A stretch of 38,394 bases of DNA from a virus, in the IMG/VR virus record IMGVR_UViG_3300023179_005725, positions 1-38,394 of that record; one strand, 5' to 3'. The number at the start of each line of letters is the position of its first letter. The first letter of the stretch is position 1. Made by a program: the position numbers and the translations under genes. Shown here in pieces: positions 2,569-37,703 of this stretch. The notes under the pieces were generated by a model, which was not told the origin of the DNA, searched no databases, and was given only the letters and a program-made list of their open reading frames with translations.

Positions 2569-2882
2569 GCCTGCTTGCTGGCCCTCTCGACCGCGAGAAC
2601 CTCTTGCTCGCGCAGGATAGCATACTGCTTCCCGTAGCTATGCACGGGCCGAGCAGACTGCTCTTCGTACAGCACGACGTCACCGACCTTCACCGCGAGG
2701 CCGACCGGCGTGCCGTTCTGCGCGAGGAACCCCTCGCCCACGGCGAGCACCCGTCCGCGCTTCATCTTGTCGATCGCGCCCGGGGACACGATGAACTTGT
2801 TCGGGCTGTGTACCCGGGAGTCGTCGGAAACTGGCTCGATCACGACCCGGTCTCGGATCGGGAAGATCGTCGTCTCGCTCAC
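2565..2882 (-). CDS. GroES-like co-chaperonin (Cpn10)
   Basis: 105 residues, the usual length of GroES. The family pattern runs through the whole protein: an N-terminal strand with DRVVIEPV, a variable mobile-loop segment (residues 19-38), then GRVLAVGEG, VKVGDVVLYEE and a C-terminal YAILREQEVLAV strand. GroES forms a heptameric lid on GroEL and is needed for encapsulated folding; phage versions such as T4 gp31 let the host GroEL accept a large capsid protein. The start is GTG at 2880-2882, overlapping the UvrD stop by four bases (GTGA), with a GAAGAGG ribosome-binding site nearby. Longer upstream frames simply re-read the UvrD gene. No GroEL is present, so it must work with a host GroEL. A capsid-assembly role is inference. 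Confidence 0.93.
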   Translation of the reverse strand: MSETTIFPIRDRVVIEPVSDDSRVHSPNKFIVSPGAIDKMKRGRVLAVGEGFLAQNGTPVGLAVKVGDVVLYEEQSARPVHSYGKQYAILREQEVLAVERASKQA

Positions 2883-8084: not shown

Positions 8085-8848
8085 CAGACGATCTCGGGCG
8101 GGATCGCCGCCGGACGGAAGTACCCCGCGCCAAGGATCCCAGGAGCGTCGTACCTACGCTTGGATCGGGCGACCATGTCCTCGCCGGGGCCGCTGTTGCC
8201 GTCGATCGTGCCGTAGAACGTGTCGTCGATGCGCTGTTCGACCAGCGCCACATGGTTCGCGGACCCGCGGTTGGTGCGCGCCCGGTAGAAGATGATCATC
8301 CCCGGTTGAAGCGTTGTCGAATCGGTTCGGATCTCGTCGCCATCCACCCAGCCCATCTTGGGTGCGTTCGCGGGGTCTTGGAACTGGCGGACGAGCAGGT
8401 TCGGGGTGTCCGAGCCCTTCATCGGGACAGGTGTACCGAGCGTCTTGAAGGCGCCCATCGTCCACGTAGAGATGGCCGCCGCGCACCACTCCTGCGGAGT
8501 GATGACTCCGACGTTCCGCAGCATCTGCTCGACACGCGGCCCCCAGTTGTAGGAGGTCTCGCGCACGCCGAGGTCGCGGCGCGCAGCGTCGATCATCGCC
8601 GCCGCGATCTTGTCCGACGGATCGATCGCTTCGCCCTTCACGGGCAGGATCATGGTCATCGGCGTGACCGATCCTGGGCCGACGGGCGGCGGAGCCTCCT
8701 GGTACGGCTCCATCTTCGGCAGCCCGTCCGACGGCGGCTTCGCGGCACTCTGGCTGCGAAGCGCCCACGCGATCGCGCCGACGGCTCCTCCGAGCGCGGA
8801 GAAGGTCAGCACGTCCGTCAGCAGGTCAGCGTTCGCGTTCCGCCTCAT
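8084..8848 (-). CDS. Membrane-anchored CHAP/NlpC-P60-like peptidoglycan hydrolase
   Basis: 254 residues from the ATG at 8846-8848 (4 bases after the previous stop, with GAGGCGG upstream). Residues 11-30 (TDVLTFSALGGAVGAIAWAL) form one membrane span, then a Pro-rich linker (37-66), then a catalytic region. EWCAAAISTW holds Cys122, ANHVALVEQ holds His199 and TIDGNSG holds Asn218, in the order and spacing of CHAP-type cysteine amidases or endopeptidases. QPGMIIFYRA is the usual strand before the His. Such enzymes cleave peptidoglycan amide bonds during entry or lysis. The membrane anchor suggests a virion-membrane entry enzyme rather than a free endolysin (inference). A longer frame upstream overlaps the preceding gene and is less likely. 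Confidence 0.82.
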   Translation of the reverse strand: MRRNANADLLTDVLTFSALGGAVGAIAWALRSQSAAKPPSDGLPKMEPYQEAPPPVGPGSVTPMTMILPVKGEAIDPSDKIAAAMIDAARRDLGVRETSYNWGPRVEQMLRNVGVITPQEWCAAAISTWTMGAFKTLGTPVPMKGSDTPNLLVRQFQDPANAPKMGWVDGDEIRTDSTTLQPGMIIFYRARTNRGSANHVALVEQRIDDTFYGTIDGNSGPGEDMVARSKRRYDAPGILGAGYFRPAAIPPEIV

Positions 8849-8852
8849 GCGA

Positions 8853-10412: not shown

Positions 10413-11407
10413 CACAGCCCGACTCCAGCTGAAACGCCCACGCTGACTCCGCCACCGAACTGCACGGCGACATCCGGCCCTACGTACAGGTTCTCTAGCA
10501 ACGGAAGCGGCTTGCCGATGTTGAAGTACGCAGGCACCAGCGTCAGGGCGAGGCCGCCGAGTCGCGGCTCGTACGCAACACCTGGAACCGCGAACACCCA
10601 GGTCGCGAACGTGCCCGGCTGTCCGTAGCTCGCGAGCGCGAACTGGAGACCCGGCAGGACCGCAACACCCTCGGCCGCATGCACGAACGGGCCGATCCCG
10701 ATGCCGAGCATGGGCGTCAGCCTCCATCGGAACGACGAGGGCGGCTCGTCCTCTACGTACTGAGCGTTCGCAACGGGCAGCTTGTAGGTTCTGCCGTCCA
10801 CTTCGATCTCGAACTGCGTGTACGCGTGCCGCTTGCCGTCCGAGCCGATCGCGCCGACGGTGTACGACTTGTAGCTGCGCGGCAGCACCTGGATGTCCCA
10901 GGGAGCCTGCTGCCAGGCGCTGAAGCCCACCGTGCCCCAGGGCACTTCGCCGCCCGGCGCAGGCTCCGTCAGCGTGAGCACCTGCCGCGACTCGGTGTAC
11001 TTCCACCGATCCACACCCGGCGGAGCCTCCGACGGTGCGGCGGCACTTGCGGCTGGCCGTGCTTCGCTGGCGGACGACGCCAGGCCCGCCTGTGTCTTGC
11101 CGTAGGTACGAACGGTTGAAGCCACGAGAGAGTTCACCGACGCACCAAGAGCCGCCGCGTCGTTGCGGATCTGGCTCAGATCTACGCCGAGATGTGACGC
11201 GAACTCGTCTGCGCCTCCTGGCGCGGTCTGGATCTCCGCTGCGCGGACGGTACCGTCGGGCAGAGAAACTTGCCCCACGCTGCTCAACTCGCGCACGCGA
11301 GCCTCCGCGTCGGACAAGCGGCTCCGCTGCCAGGCGATGACGCCGATGAGCGCGGCGATCAGGGCGACCAGCGCAGCGCGGGCCGCCGTCACGCCGTTCG
11401 TCGGCAC
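10412..11407 (-). CDS. N-terminally anchored protein with coiled coil and beta-rich C-terminal domain
   Basis: 331 residues from a GTG start at 11405-11407. Residues 8-27 (AARAALVALIAALIGVIAWQ) are a membrane span, followed by a short coiled coil (RSRLSDAEARVRELSS) and an Ala/Ser-rich linker (110-135). The C-terminal part has alternating strands with Gly turns, ending LYVGPDVAVQFGGGVSVGVSAGVGL. That repeated even-odd hydrophobic pattern resembles outer-membrane beta-hairpins. The architecture of inner-membrane anchor, periplasmic linker and outer-membrane-like strands would suit a spanin-like or envelope-crossing protein in a Gram-negative host (inference). No family recognised. Confidence 0.7.
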   Translation of the reverse strand: MPTNGVTAARAALVALIAALIGVIAWQRSRLSDAEARVRELSSVGQVSLPDGTVRAAEIQTAPGGADEFASHLGVDLSQIRNDAAALGASVNSLVASTVRTYGKTQAGLASSASEARPAASAAAPSEAPPGVDRWKYTESRQVLTLTEPAPGGEVPWGTVGFSAWQQAPWDIQVLPRSYKSYTVGAIGSDGKRHAYTQFEIEVDGRTYKLPVANAQYVEDEPPSSFRWRLTPMLGIGIGPFVHAAEGVAVLPGLQFALASYGQPGTFATWVFAVPGVAYEPRLGGLALTLVPAYFNIGKPLPLLENLYVGPDVAVQFGGGVSVGVSAGVGL

Positions 11408-11411
11408 GACC

Positions 11412-11900
11412 TCACCGACCCATCTGCTGCCGGATCGCCTGCACCGCCGCCGCGCAGAACTGCTGGCACGCCTGCTCGACCTTCGGGGGGATGAACCCGC
11501 GCGCCCGGGCGAGATCGAGCGACTGCTGGATGTCCGAAGGCGTCAGCCACACGAGCAGCGCGGACGTACAGCGGGCACACGGCAGCGCGGGCCACCAGAC
11601 CTGCTCCTTGCCGTCCCACTTCCAGTCGAGAGGAGCGCCGCGAAGCAGCCCCTGAGACCGCTGGTACGCGACGACCGGCGGCACGCCAGCGCGGAGCGCC
11701 AGCATCTCCGGCCACTCGATGACCATCACCTTGCGCGAGCCGCAGCGCGCGCAGTCGAAGTTGACCACCAGACCTTCCGGCGATCCGGACTTGCGCTGCG
11801 CCTCGTGGTCGCTCAGGGCCGGACACAGCCCGGCGCACTCGGAACCGAAGATGCCGCGCTGCTGGTCGATGACGTCGTCGAAGTTCTCTTGCTCGCCCAT
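11412..11900 (-). CDS. Zinc-ribbon-like hypothetical protein
   Basis: 162 residues, ATG at 11898-11900 with GGGGAG just upstream. Two CxxC pairs, CARCGSRK (about 51) and CARCTSA (about 108), separated by a beta-rich stretch, form a plausible zinc ribbon. Further Cys lie at GSECAGLCPA and QACQQFC. No membrane segment. The fold suggests nucleic-acid or protein binding but no family is recognised. It lies 10 bases after the stop of the coiled-coil membrane protein and 4 bases before the next start. Confidence 0.7.
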   Translation of the reverse strand: MGEQENFDDVIDQQRGIFGSECAGLCPALSDHEAQRKSGSPEGLVVNFDCARCGSRKVMVIEWPEMLALRAGVPPVVAYQRSQGLLRGAPLDWKWDGKEQVWWPALPCARCTSALLVWLTPSDIQQSLDLARARGFIPPKVEQACQQFCAAAVQAIRQQMGR

Positions 11901-11910
11901 GTGCTCCCCT

Positions 11911-12276
11911 TCACGGCCTGCAACGGTCGCGTGAACTCGACATCTGACACAGGATCAGCACGTTGTCGTGCAGCGCGCGCGTGACCTCGTCGATGTCCTT
12001 CAGCGTGCTCTTGATCTGGTTGAGCCGCTCTTCGGTCACCTGCTTGTGTGTCTCCAGCAGCGTGATGCGCGCCACGAGGCTCCCCTGCGTGTCTTGGATG
12101 CCCTTGACGTCGTCCTGGATCTTCTTCGCCTGCGCCTGCGCCTCGGAGACGGTCTGCCGTAGCATCCCCCACGCGCTTCCTACCGTAAGTAGCGCAACGA
12201 AGATCTGGACGCTCGGCCCAGCCCACTTCGACGCCGTGTCTGCCGAGGTCGGCCCGTTCGACGCACCCATGTTCAC
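11911..12276 (-). CDS. Membrane-anchored coiled-coil protein
   Basis: 121 residues. A membrane span at about 22-40 (SVQIFVALLTVGSAWGMLR) is followed by a long heptad-like helix (EAQAQAKKIQDDVKGIQD... LLETHKQVTEERLNQIKSTLKDIDEVTRAL). The C-terminus has one Cys and a basic end. The ATG at 12274-12276 overlaps the upstream stop as ATGA; a second ATG lies two codons on. This layout (N-terminal span plus coiled coil) resembles hemolysin-XhlA-type phage proteins or an inner-membrane spanin subunit, so a lysis role is possible but unproven. Confidence 0.7.
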   Translation of the reverse strand: MNMGASNGPTSADTASKWAGPSVQIFVALLTVGSAWGMLRQTVSEAQAQAKKIQDDVKGIQDTQGSLVARITLLETHKQVTEERLNQIKSTLKDIDEVTRALHDNVLILCQMSSSRDRCRP

Positions 12277-24665: not shown

Positions 24666-27446
24666 GTGAGCCGCCGTCAGAAGAGGGGCCGTCTCCCTGG
24701 TGAATCAGAGATCGAGTATCAGGCTCGGCTCGCCAACATCCGCCAAGCAGAGGCACAGGCCAAGCGTGCGAAGCGAGAACGACGTCCGGGTGAGTCCGAT
24801 GCCGAGTACCAGTCTCGGATGTCGCTGCTGCGACAGCAGGAGGCCGACGCTCGTCGTGAGCGCCGTGTTTCTACGCGCGGCTCTTCGCCCGACGGACGGA
24901 CACGACCCCCCCCGACGGACGGACAAATCAGGCCCGGACCGGACGGACACTGTGTCCGTCCGGTCGGGGACTGGACGGACACAGAAATGTCCGTCCAGTC
25001 CGACGCGAAAACCAGCGAAATCACAGCGTTTTTCGACGATGTCCGTCCGGTCGGTGTCCGTCCGGTCGGACCTGCCGACGTCCTGCCCCCCTCCTATGGA
25101 GGGGGGGCAGGACGGACGTCGGCAGACGAATGTCCGTCCAGTCCCTGTCCGTCCAGTCCCTGTCCGTCCAGTCCCTGTCCGTCCAGTCCCGAGGCTGAAA
25201 GCGAACTGATGCCACCGACCTCCGCCGAAGAGTCTGATCGCCGAAACAACGTGATCACGCTCTTCGCGGACAAGCGCCCCGCCGCGCCGCCGTTCGACTT
25301 CGCGGAGCGCGAGGAGTTGCTCTGGGCGCGCATCGCGCAGCTGGAAATCAGGCTGGCGGACGCCGAACAGGCTCTCGCGTCGGCGCAGGCGGCGGTCAGC
25401 GCGCTGCAAGATGCCGTCGTGTGGCTCCAGCGACCCGCGCGCTCGCAGCCCGTCGAGCCTGCCGAGGCCGAAGCTGCGCCGTCCGCCGTCGAGCCGGAGC
25501 CGCACGCTTCCGCGACGGACGACGTCGTGCACGAGTCGAGCGTGGACGAGCCGACGCGCGACGCGATCTGCGCCGTCTGGATGTACCTGTGTTCGAGGTA
25601 CGTGGCCGATCGCGCCGCCCACATCGCGCTCTCGGACGTAGACGTCGTCGCGCTGGAGCAGGTCTGGTCGCAGGCCAGCGAGGCGGCGTATCAGAACCGG
25701 CCCAGGGCGGAAGACCTGTTCTACGTATGGGCCGAACGCTTCCTGCTCGATCAGGCCGTTCCCGAAGCAGAGAAGAACCCTCGTGGCTTCTGCGTGAGAA
25801 GCCACCTGTTCCCGCGCCGATTGCCGGAGGGTCTCTGCGAGAAGTGGCCGCCGATCGAACCGGAAGAAGACGACTATCTACAGTGCTTCCCGTTCGACGT
25901 GATCCGCGTCAGTGGAGCCAGGCTGCCGCTGGGGGCGCGCATGTCGCAGCCCGCTGACAACGAGCGCGCCGAAGCGCCGCCGAAGGCGTTCCGGTGTCTG
26001 GTCGAAGTAGAGCGCGCAGAGGCCGACGGCGAGACCGTCGAAGAGCACCTGCGACGCCGCGTCGAGTGCCAGCACGCGTTGATCGTCGCGGCGCGCGCGT
26101 ATCCGAAGGCGCTGATGGCTACGGGCCTGCGATCGACCGACTTCGACGCGCCCGACTACGGACTGCTCTGGATGGCGATCGAAAACGTCATGCGGACCAA
26201 CCCGCAGGCGGACTCGGTCTCGGACGGCGAGTTCCTGGAGCACGCCCGCAAGCTCGGCGCGCGCTTCCGAACCCCGGACGGTCACAACATCCTGCTGCGG
26301 CTCTGCCGAGACCCGGCCGTCGGCGTCGAGTACGCGCTTACGGTTCTCGCGAAGGAGCTTCGGGCGACCGACGATCTCCGTGTGTGGGCGGAGACCGCGA
26401 AGAACTTCGCGGAGCGCGTTCAGCGCACGGCGGACCCGCTGGCCCTGCGGCACGAGTGGGTCGTCGAGGCGCAGGCGATCGCGCAGCGGTACGACAACGG
26501 AACCAGCGTCAAGTCGCTCGACGAGTCGGCGCAGGCGTGGCGCTCGAAGGGGTCCGCGGGAAGCATCGTGCCCACCGGCTTCTCGGAGATCGATCGCCCT
26601 ACCGGCGGCGGTCTCGGCCGTGGCGACATGATGGTGATCGGCGGCGGGACCAACCACGGCAAGAGCTACTTCGCGACCAAGATGCTGAAGAACCAGGCAG
26701 ATCTCGGCAAGACCTGCTTGTACATCTCGGTCGAAGACTCGGAAGAGCTTCTGCTGTGCCGCATGCTCGCGGACTACGCGGACCCACCGCTTGCGCCGAA
26801 GGACATCCGCGTAGCGATGCACGGCTCGTCGCCCGTCGCGGACCCGAAGATCATCGACGCCGCAGCGGTGAAGATGCGCGCGCACCAGCAGGGTCGCGTC
26901 AAGACCGTGCACGCGCCGAAGTGGACGGTGTCGCAGGTGTGCAACTCGATCCGCCAGCATCGCTATCTGCACGGCATCGACATGGTCGTCGTCGACTACA
27001 TCCAAGCCGTTCAGCCGGATCAGACGTCGAACAACAAGACGCAAGACGTCGCGTTCATCGTCAGCGAACTCAAGAAGTGCGCGCACGAGGTCGGCGTCGC
27101 GCTGGTCGTGCTCTCGCAGTACGCGCGCGACGAGTACCGCAACGGCACCGAGCCGACGGTCAACTCGTGTAAGTACGCGGGCGACATCGAGAACGAAGCC
27201 GAGGTGATGCTGCTTCTCTGGCGTGACGAAGACCACCAGCTGTGGGCCAAGCTCGCGAAGCTGAAGTGGGCGTCTTCGGTTGGCCATCGGTACATCGTCG
27301 CGACGCACGAAGTGACCGGCGCGGTGCTCGACTGGACGCGCAAGATTGAGGATCCGGCGTCCCAGCAAGACCAGCAACAGCAGCAGCAGCAGCGCGGCCG
27401 TGGTGGACAGAGGCCGTTCCGGCGGCCGTCGGGAGGCAACCCGTGA
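24666..27446 (+). CDS. DnaB-type replicative helicase with long N-terminal extension
   Basis: 926 residues from GTG at 24666, with GGAG 8 bases upstream. N-terminus: two copies of a 29-residue basic repeat (LPGESEIEYQARLANIRQAE and RPGESDAEYQSRMSLLRQQE). Residues 75-180 are a low-complexity Pro/Gly/Asp segment encoded by the iteron array, including four CPSSP units. Then a coiled coil (about 208-245), a helical region, a DnaB N-domain-like stretch (about 440-590) and the RecA core: Walker A GGGTNHGKSYF (about 658-668), YISVEDSEE, Walker B DMVVVDYIQAV (about 770) and VALVVLSQYARDE. A Gln run (QQDQQQQQQQ) lies near the C-terminus. It is a hexameric 5'-3' helicase for the viral fork. About twice the usual DnaB length, due to the N-terminal half. 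Confidence 0.93.
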   Translation: MSRRQKRGRLPGESEIEYQARLANIRQAEAQAKRAKRERRPGESDAEYQSRMSLLRQQEADARRERRVSTRGSSPDGRTRPPPTDGQIRPGPDGHCVRPVGDWTDTEMSVQSDAKTSEITAFFDDVRPVGVRPVGPADVLPPSYGGGAGRTSADECPSSPCPSSPCPSSPCPSSPEAESELMPPTSAEESDRRNNVITLFADKRPAAPPFDFAEREELLWARIAQLEIRLADAEQALASAQAAVSALQDAVVWLQRPARSQPVEPAEAEAAPSAVEPEPHASATDDVVHESSVDEPTRDAICAVWMYLCSRYVADRAAHIALSDVDVVALEQVWSQASEAAYQNRPRAEDLFYVWAERFLLDQAVPEAEKNPRGFCVRSHLFPRRLPEGLCEKWPPIEPEEDDYLQCFPFDVIRVSGARLPLGARMSQPADNERAEAPPKAFRCLVEVERAEADGETVEEHLRRRVECQHALIVAARAYPKALMATGLRSTDFDAPDYGLLWMAIENVMRTNPQADSVSDGEFLEHARKLGARFRTPDGHNILLRLCRDPAVGVEYALTVLAKELRATDDLRVWAETAKNFAERVQRTADPLALRHEWVVEAQAIAQRYDNGTSVKSLDESAQAWRSKGSAGSIVPTGFSEIDRPTGGGLGRGDMMVIGGGTNHGKSYFATKMLKNQADLGKTCLYISVEDSEELLLCRMLADYADPPLAPKDIRVAMHGSSPVADPKIIDAAAVKMRAHQQGRVKTVHAPKWTVSQVCNSIRQHRYLHGIDMVVVDYIQAVQPDQTSNNKTQDVAFIVSELKKCAHEVGVALVVLSQYARDEYRNGTEPTVNSCKYAGDIENEAEVMLLLWRDEDHQLWAKLAKLKWASSVGHRYIVATHEVTGAVLDWTRKIEDPASQQDQQQQQQQRGRGGQRPFRRPSGGNP
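24894..25184. repeat. Iteron array with palindromes inside the helicase gene (candidate origin)
   Basis: Thirteen copies of GTCCGTCC or its complement: GGACGGAC at 24894, 24917, 24941, 24973, 25110; GTCCGTCC at 24954, 24989, 25041, 25056, 25132, 25147, 25162, 25177. The last four form an exact 15-base tandem repeat. Convergent copies form a dyad with 14-base perfect arms and a 1-base loop (24937-24965) and another with 11-base arms (24971-24998). A long stem of about 22 pairs with a 4-base bulge spans 25073-25124. A short AT-richer patch lies at 25006-25040. Elsewhere in the window I see only isolated copies. Confidence 0.85.
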
Positions 27447-28504
27447 GCAAGATCACGATCCGAGAAGTGGGCCGACTGTGCGGCGTCGCACTGCCGTCTG
27501 CGCCCGGCAAGGCGCAGTGCCCGATCCGCAAGCACAAGCGCGACGACAAGACGTTCCGCGTGTTCTTGTCGCGAAGCGGCGACGAGATCTGGAAGTGCTG
27601 GTCGTGCGACGAGCCGGAGAACGTCGGTGACGCGGTCGCCCTGTACGGGCAACTCAAGCAGCTAGACCGCAAGGACGCGTGGCGGCAGCTACGCGACATG
27701 GGCTACGAGGTGCCCGGGGCCGATCGGCTTCGCCCGATCGCTTCGGCGCGACCGGCCGCCTCGGCGCAAGTGTCGACGAAGCCGAAGATCGGCGTTCGAG
27801 GCGCGCGCAACGACCGGGTGCTCGCGCTACCGAAGGCGAGGCTCGACGAGTGGTCGTCGCTGCCGGACGAGCACGTGAACCGCTTCCTGCGTTCGCGTGG
27901 CTTCTCCGAGTCTTTCGACCACCGGAGCTACGGCGTGATCGCGATGCCCGCGGACTGCGTCGGGTTCGTCTACGTGGACCCGATGACGGGAACGCCGTGC
28001 CGCGTGAAGGTTCGCGCGATTCGCGAAAAGCGGTTTTGGAACGAGCCGCGTCCCGACCCCGCGCAGCCTGGAGCCAAGGCCGTAGCGCCGCTCTGGCTCG
28101 CTGACCGGCTCTCGCTCGCGCTGACGCCGCTCGACAGCATCGTGATCACCGAGGGCGAGCTAGACGCGCTCGCGCTCGTGTCCGTCGGCATCTCGAACGT
28201 CGTCAGCCTGCCCGACGGCTCGGCCAGCGCGACCACCGTGAGCCTGGAGCCGCTCTGCGGCATCTTCAGAAACTGGTACGTAGCGGTCGATCAGGACGAG
28301 TCGGGCGAAAAAGCCTGGAGATACCTACGGGACCGTGCGCGTGACTCGGGTGCCGAAGCGTTCCGCGTTGCCTGGGCCACCCTCGACGGCGACGATGTTC
28401 GCCACTTCAAGGACGCCAACGAGGCGCTGGCCGCCGGGTTCGCTCGCGCAGACTTCGTTCGGTGCATCGAACTTGCTGGGACGCCGCGCAGGCGCGTGGC
28501 GTGA
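27443..28504 (+). CDS. DnaG-like primase (zinc finger plus TOPRIM domain)
   Basis: 353 residues from GTG at 27443, with GGGAGG 6 bases upstream and a GTGA overlap with the helicase stop. Residues 15-56 are a zinc-binding module (CPIRKH ... KCWSC) like the CHC2 finger of phage and bacterial primases. Residues about 230-320 form a TOPRIM domain: IVITEGELDALALVSVGISNVVSLPDG (conserved Glu) and YVAVDQDESGEKAWRYL (DxD-like acidic motif), with a later KDANEAL. It would lay RNA primers at the fork with the adjacent DnaB-type helicase. It is shorter than bacterial DnaG, lacking an obvious C-terminal helicase-binding domain, as in many phage primases. Coupled translation with the helicase suggests a stoichiometric primosome. 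Confidence 0.92.
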   Translation: MSKITIREVGRLCGVALPSAPGKAQCPIRKHKRDDKTFRVFLSRSGDEIWKCWSCDEPENVGDAVALYGQLKQLDRKDAWRQLRDMGYEVPGADRLRPIASARPAASAQVSTKPKIGVRGARNDRVLALPKARLDEWSSLPDEHVNRFLRSRGFSESFDHRSYGVIAMPADCVGFVYVDPMTGTPCRVKVRAIREKRFWNEPRPDPAQPGAKAVAPLWLADRLSLALTPLDSIVITEGELDALALVSVGISNVVSLPDGSASATTVSLEPLCGIFRNWYVAVDQDESGEKAWRYLRDRARDSGAEAFRVAWATLDGDDVRHFKDANEALAAGFARADFVRCIELAGTPRRRVA

Positions 28505-30508: not shown

Positions 30509-32740
30509 ATGCGAAAGGCACGGGTGCGTTCAATGGCGGTTGGCAAGGTTCGGCGGATCACGCTCAAGCAGGCGAAGTCGTACCAGCGTTCGGTTCCGAA
30601 CGGCATGGGGGTCACCTCCATCGCTTCGGTGAATGGCCCGGGCGCGTACGGCCTGTCGGACTACACCGGCCGCTACGCGCAGACGCAGTCCATGCTGGGT
30701 CGCGGCATGCGCGTCGAGGACGCTCGCATGCTGCGGATGTTCCCGAACCCGTACGACCCGATCGGCGGAGCGTCGGCGGTGGTCGACCGCCCGACGCCGG
30801 AGCAGATGGAGGCGGCGCTGGAGCGTCGGCGTCCGCTGACGGGCGCTGCCAAGAAATCCGCCGAGCGCAAGCGAAAGCGCGAGGAGGCGGAGGCGCGCAA
30901 GGCTGCCGCGGAGGTGGAGCGCATGGCGGCTGCCGCCGCCAAGGCGGAAGCCGATCGGCTCGCGGCAGAGGCGGCGAAGGAAGAAAAGCAGGCCCGGTCC
31001 GAACGGGCGTCAACCGGACGGGCATCGTCCACATCAGGAGCGAGGAAGATGGCGAAGAAGAAGGCGAAGAAGAAGGGTCGCTCGAAGAGCAAGAAGAAGG
31101 CGCTGGTCGGCCGGAAGTACGGGCCGAAGGGCAAGTTCCAGTCGATTCGCGCCAGGGTCGGCAAGCGAACGGTGCGTACGTACGCCCGTGCGACGAAGAC
31201 CGGGGCGGCGAAGATCCCGACCTGGGCGCTGATCGGCGCGAAGAGCGCGCGCGAACTGAAGAAGGCCCAGGAGGAGATCATGGGTCCGCGCACGAAGCGC
31301 GCCGACTCGCTCCTCAACCGTCTCGACAAGCTCGCGAAGCTCCGCAAGAAGGCCGCGGAGTCCGTCCTGGAGGGCAAGTCGCTCTTCTACCCCAACGCCC
31401 GCGTCGTGTCCTACGAGGATCTGATGAACGAGAACGGCAAGAAGAAGAAGAAGAAGGCCAAGAAGTCGAAGGCGAAGAAGTCGGCGAAGGCGGCGAAGGC
31501 GGCCAAGAAGCACAAGGGCTACGGGCCGCACCTCACCAAGGCGCAGAAGAAGGCGAACAGCAAGCGCCGCTCGCGCGCCCGGTCGGAGATCAAGTCGCTC
31601 GCCAAGCTGCTCGGGGCGTTCAAGCCCGCGCGGTCGAAGAAGAAGACCGCGAAGAAGATCACCAAGATCCGCAAGAGCGCCCGCAAGGGTCTCACGGCGG
31701 TCAAGGCGTACTTCGCGAACGGCGGCGGGATGTACGACGCCAACGGCTACGGGATGTACGACGCCAACGGCCACGGGATGTACGACGAGAACGCCTACGG
31801 GATGTACGACGAGAACCGTCGTGGCCGCCACGGCCACGCTGGCCCTCGCCGTAGGGGCCGGAAGGGCTTCAAGAAGACCCGTCGGCGTCACTACGAGGAG
31901 AACGGCTTCGCCGGGACGCTCCTCGACGCCGTGAAGACCGGCAGCGTCGCGGTCGGCGGCTTCCTCGTCCACCGCGCGCTCGCGCACTTCGTCGATGACA
32001 TGGTGCTCGGCAAGGTGACCGCGCTCCAGTCGGGCACCGGGGCGAAGGTTCGTCCGATCCTCTCGGGCCTCATCACGATCGCGGCTGGCATCCCGCTCAC
32101 CGACATGGCGGGCAAGGGACTCTCGTCCGAGCAGCGCAACCTCGTCAAGACTGGCATGGTGGTCTCCTTCGTCCAGGGCGCGATCGTGTCCCTGCTGAAG
32201 GGGAACGAGTACGGCGACAAGGTCGTGGGCTACCTCGCGGGCTACCCGCAGGCGTACCGTGGCTACGGCGAGTACATGGCGACGTCCGGCATGGGTGAGT
32301 ACATGGCGACGTCCGGCATGGGCGAGTACATGGCCACCTCGGGCTTCGGCGCGTTCGAGCAGGCGGCTGCTGGCTACGGCGCGATCGAGCAGGCGGCTGC
32401 TGGCTACGGCGCGATCGAGCAGGCGGCTGCTGGCTACGGCGCGATCGAGCAGGCGGCGGCGGGCATGGGCGAGTACATGGCGACGGGCGTCCAGGGCATC
32501 GGTGACTACGATGTCCGCGCTCCCGCGGTGTACTCTGGCTACGGCCAGACCGACGAGGGCATCATGCCGAACACGAGCGCGGCGGAGTACGCGCTCTCCG
32601 TGGCCGAGGCTACCTCGGGCATCGGGGACGCGGGTGCTCTCTCGATCGTGAACCCGTCGGATCTCGCGGTCCCGGTGGGCGACGGCGCGGAGGCTCTCCG
32701 TACCGGCGTGCTCCAGGGCGGCGACGGCATCTTCGGCTGA
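30509..32740 (+). CDS. Lysine-rich, histone-like repeat protein with membrane segments
   Basis: 743 residues from ATG 30509 (ATG 30533 is an alternative; neither has a strong ribosome-binding site). Regions: basic N-terminus; Ala/Glu/Lys helix (120-170); several Lys/Ala/Ser runs of histone-H1-like character (KMAKKKAKKKGRSKSKKKA; KKKKKKAKKSKAKKSAKAAK); four 8-residue units GMYDANGY or variants (about 407-438); a basic patch (GPRRRGRKGFKKTRRRH). Two or three hydrophobic segments follow (AVKTGSVAVGGFLVHRALAHF; ILSGLITIAAGIPL; TGMVVSFVQGAIVSLL), then three GEYMATSGM units and four G[YF]GA[IF]EQAAA units. Codons are strongly biased to GC-ending forms, as in highly expressed genes. A DNA-condensing virion protein tied to a membrane is a reasonable inference; no family recognised. 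Confidence 0.8.
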   Translation: MRKARVRSMAVGKVRRITLKQAKSYQRSVPNGMGVTSIASVNGPGAYGLSDYTGRYAQTQSMLGRGMRVEDARMLRMFPNPYDPIGGASAVVDRPTPEQMEAALERRRPLTGAAKKSAERKRKREEAEARKAAAEVERMAAAAAKAEADRLAAEAAKEEKQARSERASTGRASSTSGARKMAKKKAKKKGRSKSKKKALVGRKYGPKGKFQSIRARVGKRTVRTYARATKTGAAKIPTWALIGAKSARELKKAQEEIMGPRTKRADSLLNRLDKLAKLRKKAAESVLEGKSLFYPNARVVSYEDLMNENGKKKKKKAKKSKAKKSAKAAKAAKKHKGYGPHLTKAQKKANSKRRSRARSEIKSLAKLLGAFKPARSKKKTAKKITKIRKSARKGLTAVKAYFANGGGMYDANGYGMYDANGHGMYDENAYGMYDENRRGRHGHAGPRRRGRKGFKKTRRRHYEENGFAGTLLDAVKTGSVAVGGFLVHRALAHFVDDMVLGKVTALQSGTGAKVRPILSGLITIAAGIPLTDMAGKGLSSEQRNLVKTGMVVSFVQGAIVSLLKGNEYGDKVVGYLAGYPQAYRGYGEYMATSGMGEYMATSGMGEYMATSGFGAFEQAAAGYGAIEQAAAGYGAIEQAAAGYGAIEQAAAGMGEYMATGVQGIGDYDVRAPAVYSGYGQTDEGIMPNTSAAEYALSVAEATSGIGDAGALSIVNPSDLAVPVGDGAEALRTGVLQGGDGIFG
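31727..31822 (+). repeat. Four 24-bp tandem repeats (GMYDxNxx)
   Basis: Four in-frame 24-base units, each beginning GGGATGTACGAC, encode GMYDANGY, GMYDANGH, GMYDENAY and GMYDENRR. They separate the lysine-rich part from the membrane part of the 30509 protein. Confidence 0.85.
32267..32488 (+). repeat. Tandem 27-bp and 30-bp repeats (GEYMATSGM, GYGAIEQAAA)
   Basis: Three 27-base units (32267-32347) encode GEYMATSGM/F. Four overlapping-start 30-base units (32342-32461) encode GFGAFEQAAA then three GYGAIEQAAA, followed by one diverged GMGEYMATG. DNA copies are nearly identical, so copy number probably varies between related genomes. Confidence 0.85.
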
Positions 32741-32849: not shown

Positions 32850-34043
32850 ATGGCGAAGCTCACCAACGTGCGCGAACGGGTCCATCAGCCCTTCAGAGAT
32901 ACGCTGATTCGCACCTCGGGCCTGTACCCGTCGGCAGTGCAGGATCGTACGGACCTGTTCACCAAGGCGGGGAAGAACGACGCGGAGAGCAACCTGAAGA
33001 ACGGCTCGACGCTTCCGAGCGACCAGAGCATGGTCGTGCTCGCGCTGCGGGTGTTCACCTGGTTCCGCGCGTCGCAGCTTCGCCCGTTTCCGGTGTGCTG
33101 CGACTTCCGGCCCGGTCCTAGCGTGGCCAGTCCGGCTGGCGGCTCGTCGCTGAACGAGCAGCAGATCCTGATTGCCGCGCGGCCGGATGGGCCGTGTACC
33201 TCGACGGTTCTGCTGTGCAACGGCGACATTCAGCCGACGGCCGACTGCAACACCCTCGCTCCGATTCTCAACGGGTCGGCGATCGGTAACTACGAGGACG
33301 TCTATCGCCTGCACTGGCAGGCGGAAGAGCAGCTGCTGTGGAGCTTCGGCTCCGGGCAGAAGTTCTCGCTCACGAGCATGCCCACGGCGTACTTTCCGTA
33401 CGGTGGGGGTATCTACGGCGACATGGGTCACGCAGGCACGGCCTGCTGCGCGGCTATCGTGTTGGAGTCGACGGGTTCGCCCAGTGCACCGCCGGTCATT
33501 CGTGGCCTGGGCGGGTGCTGCGCCGGATCTGTGATCGGGGTCAGCGTGGAGTTGTCGGAGTCGCCTGGGAGCTATGTCGTCACTGTCGAAGGCAAGGGGA
33601 TCGCATCGTTCACGGCCACGATCCCGGCCTCCAGCTTCCCGATCACGTTCCAGGTTGGTCCGGACGGGGGCGATCCCTGCCTGGAGATCACGCTGTACGC
33701 GCCGACGCCTGGCATCGCTCCGATTTCCGGGCCGTTGTACGCCTACTTGTACGAAATCCGCCGCGATTGCTCCTGCGGGCCGCTGATTCACTGGGAAAAT
33801 GGCACGCCGGACCACAGCGGGATCCTCCGCTTGGCTCGGGCGATTCTGTTGCCGCCGAGGCAGAATGTGCTCTGCCAGGCGCAGATCGTTCGGCTTCCCG
33901 ACGGCGGCAACGCTGGCACGTTCGGCTCCACGCAGGGGTCGCGCGACATGCTCTCGCTCACGGGCAACCTCAACGCCGTGGACGCGCTCCAGAAGGTGAT
34001 CAGCTTCACCTTCGACGGCCTCTTCAGCCGAGACGTTCAGTAA
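32850..34043 (+). CDS. Candidate major capsid protein, large paralogue
   Basis: 397 residues, ATG 32850 with GGAG 5 bases upstream. It shares nearly all of the smaller 34201 protein: MAKLTNVRERVHQPFRDTLI, SNLKNGSTLPSDQSMVVLAL, NYEDVYRLHWQAEEQLLWSF, TAYFPYGGG, then DHSGILRLARAILLPPRQNV and KVISFTFDGLFSRDVQ at the C-terminus. Between YFPYGGGIYG (190) and LIHW (312) it carries about 120 extra residues, beta-rich and Cys-containing (ACC, GGCC, CSC), absent from the paralogue; a shorter divergent stretch lies at 76-140. The pattern of paired strands suits a jelly-roll capsid subunit. Capsid identity is inferred from position, paralogy and fold pattern, not from a named match. A GTAACTAC site lies 10 bases upstream. 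Confidence 0.65.
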   Translation: MAKLTNVRERVHQPFRDTLIRTSGLYPSAVQDRTDLFTKAGKNDAESNLKNGSTLPSDQSMVVLALRVFTWFRASQLRPFPVCCDFRPGPSVASPAGGSSLNEQQILIAARPDGPCTSTVLLCNGDIQPTADCNTLAPILNGSAIGNYEDVYRLHWQAEEQLLWSFGSGQKFSLTSMPTAYFPYGGGIYGDMGHAGTACCAAIVLESTGSPSAPPVIRGLGGCCAGSVIGVSVELSESPGSYVVTVEGKGIASFTATIPASSFPITFQVGPDGGDPCLEITLYAPTPGIAPISGPLYAYLYEIRRDCSCGPLIHWENGTPDHSGILRLARAILLPPRQNVLCQAQIVRLPDGGNAGTFGSTQGSRDMLSLTGNLNAVDALQKVISFTFDGLFSRDVQ

Positions 34044-34054
34044 GTACAAGTCGC

Positions 34055-34192
34055 TTGACAGGGTGTTCCTGATCAAGTACGAATAGCAACAACGCGCTGC
34101 GTGTGTGCTCTGGGCACGCAGCGCGCAACTCTCCAGAGCGAGGAGCCTGCGGTCGAACGGGAACCAAGCCCGACCAACATGGTAACCGCAGG
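34055..34192 (+). promoter_or_regulatory. Promoter and structured leader of the small capsid-type gene
   Basis: TTGACA (34055-34060), 17 bases, TACGAA (34078-34083). The predicted leader of about 110 bases holds a hairpin with perfect 10-bp arms (34094-34103 with 34115-34124) and a larger stem with 8-bp arms (34146-34153 with 34185-34192) that ends one base before GTAGATAC (34193-34200) and the ATG at 34201. The structure may stabilise a very abundant message or control its translation. Confidence 0.65.
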
Positions 34193-34200
34193 GTAGATAC

Positions 34201-34977
34201 ATGGCGAAGCTCACCAACGTGCGCGAGCGGGTGCACCAGCCCTTCCGCGATACTCTCATTCGTAGCTCCGGCTACTACGCGTCGAACGTCCAGGACCGCA
34301 CCGAGCTGTTCACCCAGGCGGGCAAGGACGACGGCGCGTCGAACCTCAAGAACGGCTCGACGCTGCCCAGCGACCAGTCGATGGTCGTCCTGGCGCTCCG
34401 CGTCTTCACGTGGTTCCGCGCTTCGGTGGCGCGCGGCGCGACGGTCGACTGCTCGGGCACGGGCGCGGGTCCGTTCGTCCTCACGTCGAACGGCGACTAC
34501 AACGCGGCGACCGTCCAGTGCGGCGGCACGGGCGTGCAGACGCTGAACGGCCAGGCCGTCGGCAACTACCAGGACGTCTACCGCCTCCACTGGCAGGCGG
34601 AGGAGCAGCTGCTCTGGTCGTTCGGGTCGGGCCAGAAGCTGTCGCTCACGAGCATGCCCACGGCGTACTTCCCGTACGGCGGCGGCCTGTTCGGCAACAA
34701 CGGCGGCGTCACGGATCTGATTCACTGGGGAAACGGCACGCCGGACCACAGCGGTATCCTCCGCCTGGCCCGTGCGATTCTCTTGCCGCCTCGCCAGAAC
34801 GTCCTCTGCCAGGCGCAGATCGTGAACCTGCCGGACGGCGGGAACGCGGGCATCTTCGGCTCCACGCAGGGGTCGCGGAACATGCTCTCGCTCACGAGCA
34901 ACCTCAACGCGGTCGACCTCGTCAACAAGGTCATCTCGTTCACGTTCGACGGCCTCTTCAGCCGCGACGTCCAGTAA
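34201..34977 (+). CDS. Candidate major capsid protein, small paralogue
   Basis: 258 residues, ATG 34201. It has the same N-terminal 75 residues and C-terminal 90 residues as the 32850 protein, with only a short loop (GNNGGVTD, about 165-172) where that protein has its extra domain. Strands are plausible at SMVVLALRVFTWF, YRLHWQAEEQLLWSF, ILRLARAILLPP, VLCQAQIV and KVISFTFDG. It has its own strong promoter and structured leader, and codons are strongly GC-ending, suggesting it is the most expressed capsid-type protein. Paired large and small paralogous capsid proteins are known in tailless membrane viruses such as P23-77, though there the two are far more diverged. Identity here is inference. 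Confidence 0.65.
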   Translation: MAKLTNVRERVHQPFRDTLIRSSGYYASNVQDRTELFTQAGKDDGASNLKNGSTLPSDQSMVVLALRVFTWFRASVARGATVDCSGTGAGPFVLTSNGDYNAATVQCGGTGVQTLNGQAVGNYQDVYRLHWQAEEQLLWSFGSGQKLSLTSMPTAYFPYGGGLFGNNGGVTDLIHWGNGTPDHSGILRLARAILLPPRQNVLCQAQIVNLPDGGNAGIFGSTQGSRNMLSLTSNLNAVDLVNKVISFTFDGLFSRDVQ

Positions 34978-35107
34978 TACGTACAGAAGCCTAACGGCTT
35001 CCTGCGTACTACCGGCAGACGACCCCCTCGGGCCTGTTTCGGCAGGCTCGGGGGGAGCGTCCTCTATGTAGGACGAACCTCGGCGCAGAGCCGAGAGGAG
35101 AACAGTC
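34978..35107 (+). promoter_or_regulatory. Four-hairpin intergenic leader
   Basis: Between the small capsid-type gene and 35108 are four successive stem-loops: 34986-35001 (6 bp), 35023-35054 (GC-rich with a bulge), 35057-35074 (CGTCCT/AGGACG, 6 bp perfect) and 35078-35094 (CTCGGC/GCCGAG). AGGAG follows 7 bases before the next ATG. No clear promoter boxes. The first hairpin may be a weak terminator; the others look like processed or translation-controlling leader structure. Confidence 0.65.
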
Positions 35108-36184
35108 ATGGCATACGGTCAGTTTCCCCCGGGTGGCGGCTTCCCTGGCGGCGCAGATCCCATCTCGCAGATGCGGTCTGATCTTGCGCGGCTTCGTCAG
35201 GACTTCGAGAGCCGCTACGGCAACATCGCGCAGCACATCCGTCGTCGCGACGATGTCCTGGAGAACGCATCCCGCAAGCTCGGTGAGATCGCCGCTGCGG
35301 TGGACGTGCTCAAGACGACGCGCTTCGGCATCGACGACGCCCCCGGCCTCGTGCGGATCGAGAACATTCCCGGCCGTCGCGTCCCGTTCACGTTCCTGGT
35401 CGACATCCCGATCGGCGCGAACACGACCAGCATCCAGCAGGGGTCGCTGACGATCTCGCAGGAAGGCCCGTTCGTCGCCGTGAAGCGCATGGCGACGTTC
35501 CAGAGCGCCTTCGAGTTCCAGGTCAACCCGATCAACGGCATCATCGACAGCCCGGCCAGGTATTCCGGCCGTAGCTTCGGTCGGTTCCGTCCGGTGAGTT
35601 CGGCGTGGGATCTGCTCGACGCGCAGGGGCCGATCAAGCAGGATCCTGCTTTGCAGTTGGGTCTCGGGCTGACGCCGCCGTCCGCAATCTCCGACGGCCT
35701 TCCCGCGTTCACTAGTTCCGCGAGCGGCTTCCGCACGATGGAGTTCGACGGTCGCATCGCCGTGATCAACGCCGGGTCGAGCTACCCGCGCCAGAACATC
35801 CCGGTTCCGTCGGCGTTCTGGTCGATGTCGATCAACGCGCCGTGGGATCTGGGCGCGCTCGACTTCTTCGAGCGTGGCGAGGTCATCACCGTGCAGGTCA
35901 GCCCGACGCACGTGAACAATCCGCCCGTCGGCAACGCCGATGGCAAGAACATCTACTTCGGTCAGCTGCTCGCTCCGGCGGGTTCCGTGATCGGCTTCCC
36001 CTTCCTCTCGGGGCAGTACGATCCTCACGAGGGTATCGTCACGCCGGGTGCCTACGTCTTAGACAACGGCGTCGACCCCGTAGTGGTCGGCACGGCGCAG
36101 ACGGACCCGATCGTGCGGTTGCCGGACGGCATCCTCACCCTCGGCTGGGAAGGCTACCGTATCATCCAGCCGGTGGCTCCCTGA
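35108..36184 (+). CDS. Structural-type protein: N-terminal coiled coil, beta-rich body
   Basis: 358 residues, ATG 35108 with AGGAG 7 bases upstream. Residues 1-18 are Gly/Pro-rich, 20-75 are helical with heptads (MRSDLARLRQDFESRY; VLENASRKLGEIAAAVDVLK), and the rest is beta-rich with aromatic and Asn/Gly turns (VPFTFLVDIPIGANTTS; GSLTISQEGPFVAVKRMATF; ILTLGWEGYRIIQPVAP). No membrane span, no Cys. Placed directly after the capsid-type pair and coupled to 36184 by TGATG. A minor capsid, penton, spike or second-layer protein is likely; no family recognised. Confidence 0.72.
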   Translation: MAYGQFPPGGGFPGGADPISQMRSDLARLRQDFESRYGNIAQHIRRRDDVLENASRKLGEIAAAVDVLKTTRFGIDDAPGLVRIENIPGRRVPFTFLVDIPIGANTTSIQQGSLTISQEGPFVAVKRMATFQSAFEFQVNPINGIIDSPARYSGRSFGRFRPVSSAWDLLDAQGPIKQDPALQLGLGLTPPSAISDGLPAFTSSASGFRTMEFDGRIAVINAGSSYPRQNIPVPSAFWSMSINAPWDLGALDFFERGEVITVQVSPTHVNNPPVGNADGKNIYFGQLLAPAGSVIGFPFLSGQYDPHEGIVTPGAYVLDNGVDPVVVGTAQTDPIVRLPDGILTLGWEGYRIIQPVAP

Positions 36185-36972
36185 TGTTCCCTCGGTCGGC
36201 CCCCGACCGATCGTTTCCTGTCCCGTCGCGTGTCTTCGGTCAGGACGCTGGCACCCCTGGGCAGGGATCGGAGCCGTTCGCGGTTCACCAGCCGGGTGGC
36301 GCACTGCTTCAGCAGGTGCTCCACCCGAGCATCACGGTGTTCGACCAGATGTTCCGGACGCTCCCGGACGACGGCTGGTACAACCCCGGCGTAGCTCCGC
36401 AGCGTCCTGTCCAGTTCGAGCTTGGCTCGTTCAAGGTGCCTGCCGGAGTTCACCTCTGGCTGATGGGGTACCAGTTCTCGGTGTACCGCCTGTCGGGCAC
36501 GGACGCGGGCGACTACGTGCCCGCCGAGGACGCGCGTTTCTCGAACGTGCTCGGCTGGGATCTTACGCTCGACGGCAAGCGCCCGGCGTCGCTGCTGTTT
36601 CAGCTGGACCCGATCCCGGTCCAGACGACGCGCCAGCAGTTCGAGCCGCAGCTGAACCCGCTGTCGGCAAGCGCGGACATCTTCGCGGAGTCGCGAGCGG
36701 TGCGGGCGCAGTTCAACCGCGCCGCAGCCAACAGCTTCGCGAGCACCGCGAACCCCGGCACGTCGCTGCTTCCGAACCGCGCGCGCCGCGTCGGCCCTGC
36801 GGCTCCGGCTCCGTTCACGTACGTATGCCGCGAGGGCGTGAGCGTCGCGCTCGGCTGCGTGATCTTCCGTCCGGTGCCGACGCCGCTGGCGTTCGTGCAG
36901 GGCGAACTCTTCGGGTACCTCGTGCAGACGAACATGAGCGACTCGCTCCAGAACCGTCTGCGGCCCCGGTAA
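36184..36972 (+). CDS. Beta-rich structural-type protein
   Basis: 262 residues from ATG 36184, sharing a base with the upstream stop; the longer in-frame extension re-reads the neighbour. A disordered N-terminus (1-40), then strands (PVQFELGSFKVPAGVHLWLMGYQFSVYRLSG; NVLGWDLTLDGKRPASLLFQLDPIPV), a helical insert (SASADIFAESRAVRAQFNRAAAN) and a final beta region (VSVALGCVIFRPVPTPLAFVQGELFGYLVQT). Translational coupling with 35108 suggests the two proteins form one complex, such as a vertex or a heteromeric capsid layer. Family not recognised. Confidence 0.72.
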   Translation: MFPRSAPDRSFPVPSRVFGQDAGTPGQGSEPFAVHQPGGALLQQVLHPSITVFDQMFRTLPDDGWYNPGVAPQRPVQFELGSFKVPAGVHLWLMGYQFSVYRLSGTDAGDYVPAEDARFSNVLGWDLTLDGKRPASLLFQLDPIPVQTTRQQFEPQLNPLSASADIFAESRAVRAQFNRAAANSFASTANPGTSLLPNRARRVGPAAPAPFTYVCREGVSVALGCVIFRPVPTPLAFVQGELFGYLVQTNMSDSLQNRLRPR

Positions 36973-37151
36973 AGTCATGCTCTCGATCGACCTGCTCGCT
37001 AACCAGAACCAGGCGTCGGCCGACGATGTGTCGTCGCCTGCGAGCGACTGTGCGGGCGTCGGTCGAGAGCGTGAAGTCTCGTACCTACTCAAGTGAAAGC
37101 TATCGTGATACGGTAGCTACGAAACGAAGTTACGAAACGAACAGGACGCCC
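36973..37151 (+). other. Structured intergenic region with direct repeats
   Basis: No convincing gene. A long foldback pairs 36979 onward (GCTCTCGA then CGACC) with GGTCGAGAGC ending about 37071. Downstream are two GTANNTAC palindromes (37081-37088, 37113-37120), the 16-base element shared with 24321-24336, and a direct repeat TACGAAACGAA at 37118-37128 and 37131-37141, 11-22 bases before the ATG. A 39-codon frame (36977-37096) lies in the hairpin but lacks a ribosome-binding site. It may be a promoter/operator or a small structured RNA. Confidence 0.55.
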
Positions 37152-37703
37152 ATGAGCTACATCACCTACGGAACCAGCGGCCTCGGCGCTTACTACACGT
37201 CCCCCGTTCGTCGTGTGGCTCCGAGCTACAGCGGCTTCGGTGCGCCGGACGCCGGGTTCGACCCTGCGTCGCTGTTCGCTCAGTGGCAGGCATGGCTGCC
37301 GATCTGCGCTCCGCTGAAAGGCAAGGCCACCTGCACCGATCCGGGGAAGAAGGCGTCTGTCGGCATCGTTCAGGCGGCGCTGCTCGCGGCCGGATTCGAC
37401 CCGAAGGGTGTCGACGGAACCTGGGGAACCAACAGCCGTGCGGCTTGGGCGGCCTTCGCACGCTCCAACCCCGGTGTGACGCCGAGTGGAGACTCCTACG
37501 AGTCGTTCACGCTCTCAGACTTCCAGACCCTCGCGCGCAAGGCGTACGGATGGATGGGTGGTTCCGGTGGTGCCTCGACTGCTGGCATGCTCGGCGGAGG
37601 CCGCGGTATCCTGCTCATCGGAGTCGCCGCGGTCGCCGTAGCGACGATCGCCGTGGTTACGTCGAAGCGCAAGAGGGGCGCCGGGTCTAGCTCGGTGGCG
37701 TGA
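37152..37703 (+). CDS. Tail-anchored protein with peptidoglycan-binding-like domain
   Basis: 183 residues, ATG 37152. Residues about 66-130 resemble a PG_binding_1-type domain: SVGIVQAALLAAGFDPKGVDGTWG and TNSRAAWAAFARSNPG, including the VDGxWGxxxxxAxxxF signature. Two Cys (PICAPLKGKATC) precede it and may pair. A Gly/Ser linker leads to a span (GILLIGVAAVAVATIAVVTS) and the basic tail KRKRGAGSSSVA. It is paralogous to the protein starting at 38012 (FDPASLFAQW against FDPAAVWTKW). Likely a membrane-tethered virion protein contacting the cell wall (inference). Confidence 0.74.
   Translation: MSYITYGTSGLGAYYTSPVRRVAPSYSGFGAPDAGFDPASLFAQWQAWLPICAPLKGKATCTDPGKKASVGIVQAALLAAGFDPKGVDGTWGTNSRAAWAAFARSNPGVTPSGDSYESFTLSDFQTLARKAYGWMGGSGGASTAGMLGGGRGILLIGVAAVAVATIAVVTSKRKRGAGSSSVA

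Follow-up and report, generated by a model that had tools for sequence, protein, structure and literature searches.

Shell genes in duplicate?

Two similar genes stand side by side in a virus record, one of them longer by an internal domain, which raises the question of whether they encode subunits of the virus shell and what the longer copy might add. The window, by which we mean the whole stretch of DNA analysed, is a single IMG/VR virus record, 38,394 bases long. Its left part holds minus-strand genes; plus-strand genes run from about 24.4 kb, and the primase among them is followed by a cassette in the order K, A, B, C, D, all on the plus strand:

24666-27446, plus strand: DnaB-like helicase
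27443-28504, plus strand: Toprim primase
30509..32740, plus strand: protein K, 743 aa
32757..32789, plus strand: 14-bp hairpin in the K-A gap
32850..34043, plus strand: protein A, 397 aa, ATG start; paralogue of B with an enlarged Cys-rich loop and an inserted beta-rich domain
33078..33287, plus strand: another divergent and lengthened stretch of A (residues 77-146, 5 Cys), lying between predicted core strands three and four
33426..33782, plus strand: insert found only in A (residues 193-311, 119 aa, 7 Cys)
34093..34125, plus strand: 12-bp hairpin in the A-B gap
34201..34977, plus strand: protein B, 258 aa, ATG start; the conserved short form, in all relatives
35024..35055, plus strand: 14-bp hairpin in the B-C gap
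35108..36184, plus strand: protein C, 358 aa; a coiled coil at the N-terminus (18-72) and a predicted jelly-roll-like domain (about 85-358)
36181..36972, plus strand: protein D, 263 aa; start uncertain (TTG used), conserved beside C
36969..37703, plus strand: 244-aa frame, part of the ORF 36825-37703

The codon usage of the A and B ORFs is of coding type. BLASTP aligned A 1-184 with B 1-159 at 66% identity including gaps (E=5e-75) and A 312-397 with B 173-258 at 91% identity (E=2e-52), so the similarity is not due to chance. A and B are paralogues, and A carries an insert. A preliminary description of this DNA had noted 397- and 258-residue products sharing N- and C-terminal parts at high identity, with a beta-rich, Cys-containing insertion at about residues 191-310 of the larger one; both observations held, the insertion being placed at residues 193-311.

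Protein K has a Lys/Arg-rich N-terminal half, hydrophobic segments at about 470-580, and near-exact tandem repeats (GMGEYMATS, YGAIEQAAAG). Short Gly-rich repeats resembling those of K are present in other cassette proteins of relatives. The hairpins in the K-A, A-B and B-C gaps are strong and lack a T-run, and in relatives, too, stable structure flanks B on either side. The 244-aa frame has a hydrophobic C-terminal segment with a basic tail, as well as a weak endolysin/peptidoglycan-binding match.

B is conserved with C and D across related records

Protein and profile scans placed 27 IMG/VR records (9-182 kb; 25 loci found via B and two more via C) and four MAG contigs in the B family. The B-C-D order is conserved: nearly all of these records have (K)-B-C-D, with a K-like hydrophobic-segment protein immediately upstream of B, and C and D after B in sufficiently long records. 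A single B-type gene was present in 26 of the 27 records, the other (L023) having two in tandem by whole-record search, and the insert of A occurred in no homologue of the B family. Identity to the most distant clade was 33-39% for B, 36-39% for the core of A, about 26-30% for C and 16-21% for D; the protein 3' of C in that clade is divergent and still alignable with D. By sequence identity, B is the best-conserved cassette protein. Profile comparisons did not relate B, C and D to one another. The labels of the MAG contigs conflict (Methanomicrobiales, Pseudomonadota, Deltaproteobacteria, Planctomycetota) and do not fix the host. In one relative, L006, an ORF of 461 aa lies between B and C (10813-12198); it has a repeated SLGPKPTPQHTLDRIDP motif and, by eye, looks like an HNH endonuclease.

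Profile searches of A, B, C and D against Pfam, PHROGs and the PDB gave nothing credible, and B and D were not found in phage and plasmid collections. Weak matches of C in these collections were rejected, as they were to DnaB genes or, spuriously, to an AMP-nucleosidase. The literature searched yielded no described group of large tailless phages, and we could not match the virus family to any known virus; the B family appears to be undescribed.

The duplication is lineage-specific but old

A and B had earlier been taken to stem from a fairly recent duplication, a view that the synonymous sites do not support. A and B have a dS of 0.69 and a four-fold-site identity of 0.51, against 0.41 expected from composition (P=0.017), and B compared with its nearest relatives, L007 and L008, gives dS values of 0.77 and 0.66 and four-fold identities of 0.54 and 0.53. 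Synonymous divergence between A and B is therefore about equal to that separating this virus from its closest relatives, and lies near the floor set by composition. The high protein identity reflects selection: in every core segment dN fell far short of dS (0.02-0.21 versus 0.53-0.97), and the core of A is under purifying selection. Synonymous divergence was fairly even along the core and thus gave no sign of recent gene conversion. In the tree, A and B grouped together (99/97), as did the two L023 copies (94/85), which indicates two separate duplications; the branch of A (0.21) was longer than that of B (0.13). The duplication, and with it the origin of A, is lineage-specific but old.

Predicted folds of A, B and C

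The preliminary description had also expected a single jelly-roll core. The model of A, built from 33 sequences, is of low confidence (pLDDT 60.6, pTM 0.59), with strand blocks mostly at pLDDT 67-88, and its core has eight strands (15-22, 33-36, 62-74, 162-168, 171-178, 329-332, 340-346 and 380-391). Within the families listed by VIA-align, 9 of the 11 rows spanning the core were viral jelly-roll capsid proteins, including enterovirus VP1/VP3 and rotavirus VP6, with Z of 3.8-4.7; all VIA Z scores were below 8, a level that unrelated models reach according to the tool. The top row for the core was a non-capsid sandwich, the carbohydrate-binding module of a xylanase (Z 6.0). Foldseek searches of the A and C models against the PDB and BFVD gave no match below E 0.08. 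The strand count and the viral rows favour the expected core, and the low model confidence and Z scores hold that expectation back: the core of A and B is most likely eight-stranded and jelly-roll-like, with a single predicted jelly roll in B.

Protein C, which is conserved beside B, was modelled as a helix of some 55 residues at the N-terminus followed by a beta domain, again at low confidence (pLDDT 61.8, pTM 0.52). Viral jelly rolls made up 41 of its 50 VIA rows and came from about eleven virus families. The best row, and the best structural match of C, was the SPV1 MCP (6oj0; Z 7.1, rmsd 3.6, 136 aligned, 11% identity), which had no link to A or B; SH1 (Z 5.4) and P23-77 VP17 (Z 5.3) were also among the rows, their matches spanning Z 5.2-5.4. 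The make-up of this list, in which single scores are weak, suggests that the model of C is a viral jelly-roll-like fold.

Two Cys-rich segments of A may form one knob

The insert of A is bounded by GGG-I-YGDMG and PLIHW and has six predicted strands. It was modelled as its own sheet (216-282), a beta unit separate from the core, as had been anticipated for the inserted domain. Searched alone against Pfam, the PDB, viral_contigs and the compared loci of relatives, it had no match; its VIA rows (RNA-phage coat proteins and flavivirus envelope, Z under 5) were taken as chance. The second divergent segment, residues 77-146, had been missed in the preliminary description and is 37% identical to B over aligned codons. 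Together, the two segments hold 12 of the 13 Cys of A (loops versus core, Fisher P=0.001), and whole homologues carry just 0-3 Cys each. In the weak model of A, the insert comes after the fifth of the eight predicted strands, the F-G position, and the D-E loop is enlarged too. The D-E and F-G loops of a canonical jelly roll lie at the same end, so that, if the weak model is right, the two Cys-rich segments of A would be neighbours. Such an arrangement fits their joint growth into one disulphide-linked knob.

Tail, packaging and membrane genes

We searched 18 records for the terminase families PF03237 and PF04466 and the portal family PF04860. None had a match, and the controls rang; the Caudoviricetes hallmark of a large terminase plus portal was thus absent as far as these three families define it. 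Records of up to 182 kb (including G002, G005, G006 and G008) had no recognisable FtsK/HerA-type packaging ATPase except for a HerA-like match in G001. Matches to PF01580 were DnaB, and PF01935 rose above the cut-off only in G001; the records may be fragments. A query with the P23-77 ATPase found only a nucleotide-kinase-like ORF, in G002, and one with the SSIP-1 ATPase, a query that has no positive control, found no match anywhere. Many small proteins in the window (12-19 kb, minus strand) and around the G008 cassette (L067-L068) end in a hydrophobic segment followed by basic residues. These C-terminal segments near the cassette are what would be expected of a membrane-containing virion, to which they point indirectly.

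The G008 record also has a run of large genes (L065 3030-15691), several of them collagen-like or starting with MSRFGSVTI. PHROG tail-fibre matches in G008 were rejected as evidence for a tail, as they stem from the collagen-like repeats. The collagen-like gene set may possibly encode adhesion fibres in a terminase-less virus.

A and B as probable shell subunits

We hold that A and B work like shell subunits of the general architecture of P23-77 and SH1. Their capsid role is likely because the cassette is conserved and includes the jelly-roll-like C, and because the core rows of A are mostly viral jelly-roll capsid proteins. Strong similarity to a non-capsid family had been named beforehand as evidence against such a role, and no non-capsid family matched; the description of A and B as capsid-type proteins is likely to be correct. 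We put a probability of roughly 0.6 on the reading that they are paralogous subunits of the shell of a large bacterial virus, one that probably lacks a tail and contains a membrane, with B, C and D making up the shell and A as the knob-bearing copy.

B would be the ancestral, conserved form, and the shell would be built from B, from C, whose jelly-roll domain would sit on a coiled-coil stalk, and from D. After B duplicated in this virus lineage, copy A would have retained the lattice-facing core and both termini, and its D-E and F-G loops, which share an end of the barrel, would have grown into a Cys-rich beta domain that projects from the particle and is cross-linked by disulphides. At some positions A would stand in for B, acting as a decoration or as a knob for host contact; it is probably a minor subunit whose projecting knob is stabilised by disulphides. 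The presence and position of A and B in the virion, the outward projection, the disulphides and the function of the knob are what we infer.

Alternatively, A and B could be a vertex pair, in which B is the penton, A its spike-bearing version, and C (and D) tile the shell. The penton of PRD1 is P31, and its spike P5 has a related base. A spike-like addition on a paralogue suits a vertex, the jelly-roll evidence is stronger in C, with vertical-type MCPs on top, and the core rows of B resemble single jelly rolls in general. However, we consider a vertex pair unlikely: B is the most conserved of B, C and D, as would suit a protein that makes many contacts in the lattice, and in sphaerolipoviruses it is the MCPs, not the vertex complex, that are most conserved (PMC5332951).

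Comparison with known tailless viruses

On the reading of the preliminary description, A and B would be the large and small MCPs of a P23-77-like virus, with B tiling the shell and A adding a projecting turret, here taken to stand on every capsomer. Viruses of this kind pair two MCPs (VP16/VP17 in P23-77, VP7/VP4 in SH1), each of them a vertical single jelly roll, in an icosahedral virion that has an internal membrane, and carry an FtsK/HerA-type packaging ATPase. Both cases share the idea of a small beta domain inserted into a large subunit, and the plan of A recalls P23-77 VP17 and SH1 VP4, large MCPs whose turret is a small barrel of about 75 residues in the D-E loop (PMC6441041). The insert of A, in contrast, has 119 residues, is Cys-rich and lies at F-G of the weak model. 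Both MCPs are conserved in the SH1/P23-77 group (Halopanivirales; PMC5332951), whereas of A and B only B is conserved. The absence of a second copy from 26 of the 27 related records, and of the insert from all of them, indicates that the shell can be built without A, and B is nearly always accompanied by the unrelated C and D as conserved partners. Furthermore, VP16 and VP17 have no detectable sequence similarity, unlike A and B with their 66-91% identity. Neither has a profile relation to B, C or D, a negative qualified by the fact that such comparisons do not link VP16 with VP17 either. An optional insert-bearing protein and conserved partners of B are reasons not to file A and B as a P23-77-type pair, which we judge improbable.

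SSIP-1, a tailless phage of bacteria that contains a membrane and has two types of MCP (PMC6356626), also bears on a P23-77-like pair, as its gp45 and gp46 are adjacent paralogues (26% identity, E=1e-12; L082 34635-35956). Its layout resembles K-A-B-C in that gp44, with hydrophobic segments, is followed by gp45/gp46 and then by further structural proteins, but gp45 equals gp46 in length and there is no inserted domain. B, C and D had no tblastn match in a collection containing SSIP-1, and profile comparisons to SSIP-1 were at noise (best K versus gp44, single-comparison P 0.016); by structural-protein similarity in these two comparisons, the present viruses do not group with SSIP-1.

It is very improbable that A and B are non-structural or surface-binding beta-sandwich variants, for instance carbohydrate-binding proteins outside the shell, as the xylanase row and the legume lectins that dominate the weak Foldseek list are all at noise level, there is no carbohydrate-binding Pfam match, and both chain ends are strictly conserved in a protein with a fixed place beside a jelly-roll-like one.

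Returning to A and B as subunits of a B, C and D shell, we tentatively suggest, at somewhat less than even odds, that the B-C-D cassette is the mark of a group of large tailless bacterial viruses (records up to 182 kb) that is of high rank and not yet described. Their shell would consist of three sequence-unrelated proteins, of which one or more would be a vertical jelly roll; they would have neither a terminase nor a recognisable FtsK/HerA packaging ATPase, and one lineage would have duplicated a shell gene and gained a disulphide-rich F-G tower. Isolated phages of this kind are small (17 kb for P23-77, 44 kb for SSIP-1), and a conserved shell cassette in records as long as 182 kb would demonstrate that large bacterial viruses, too, can use a capsid of this type. 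It would also add a new capsid protein family missed by current libraries, and the A/B pair would offer a clean natural case of tower gain through duplication and loop growth.

Other genes of the window

A UvrD-type helicase on the minus strand (2879-5752) has an intein-like insert within its frame, with an Intein_splicing match between the Pfam UvrD N and C parts. Two further minus-strand genes, at 1686-2441 and 8087-8851, encode a GDSL/SGNH hydrolase and a CHAP-like peptidoglycan hydrolase, which are candidates for entry or lysis.
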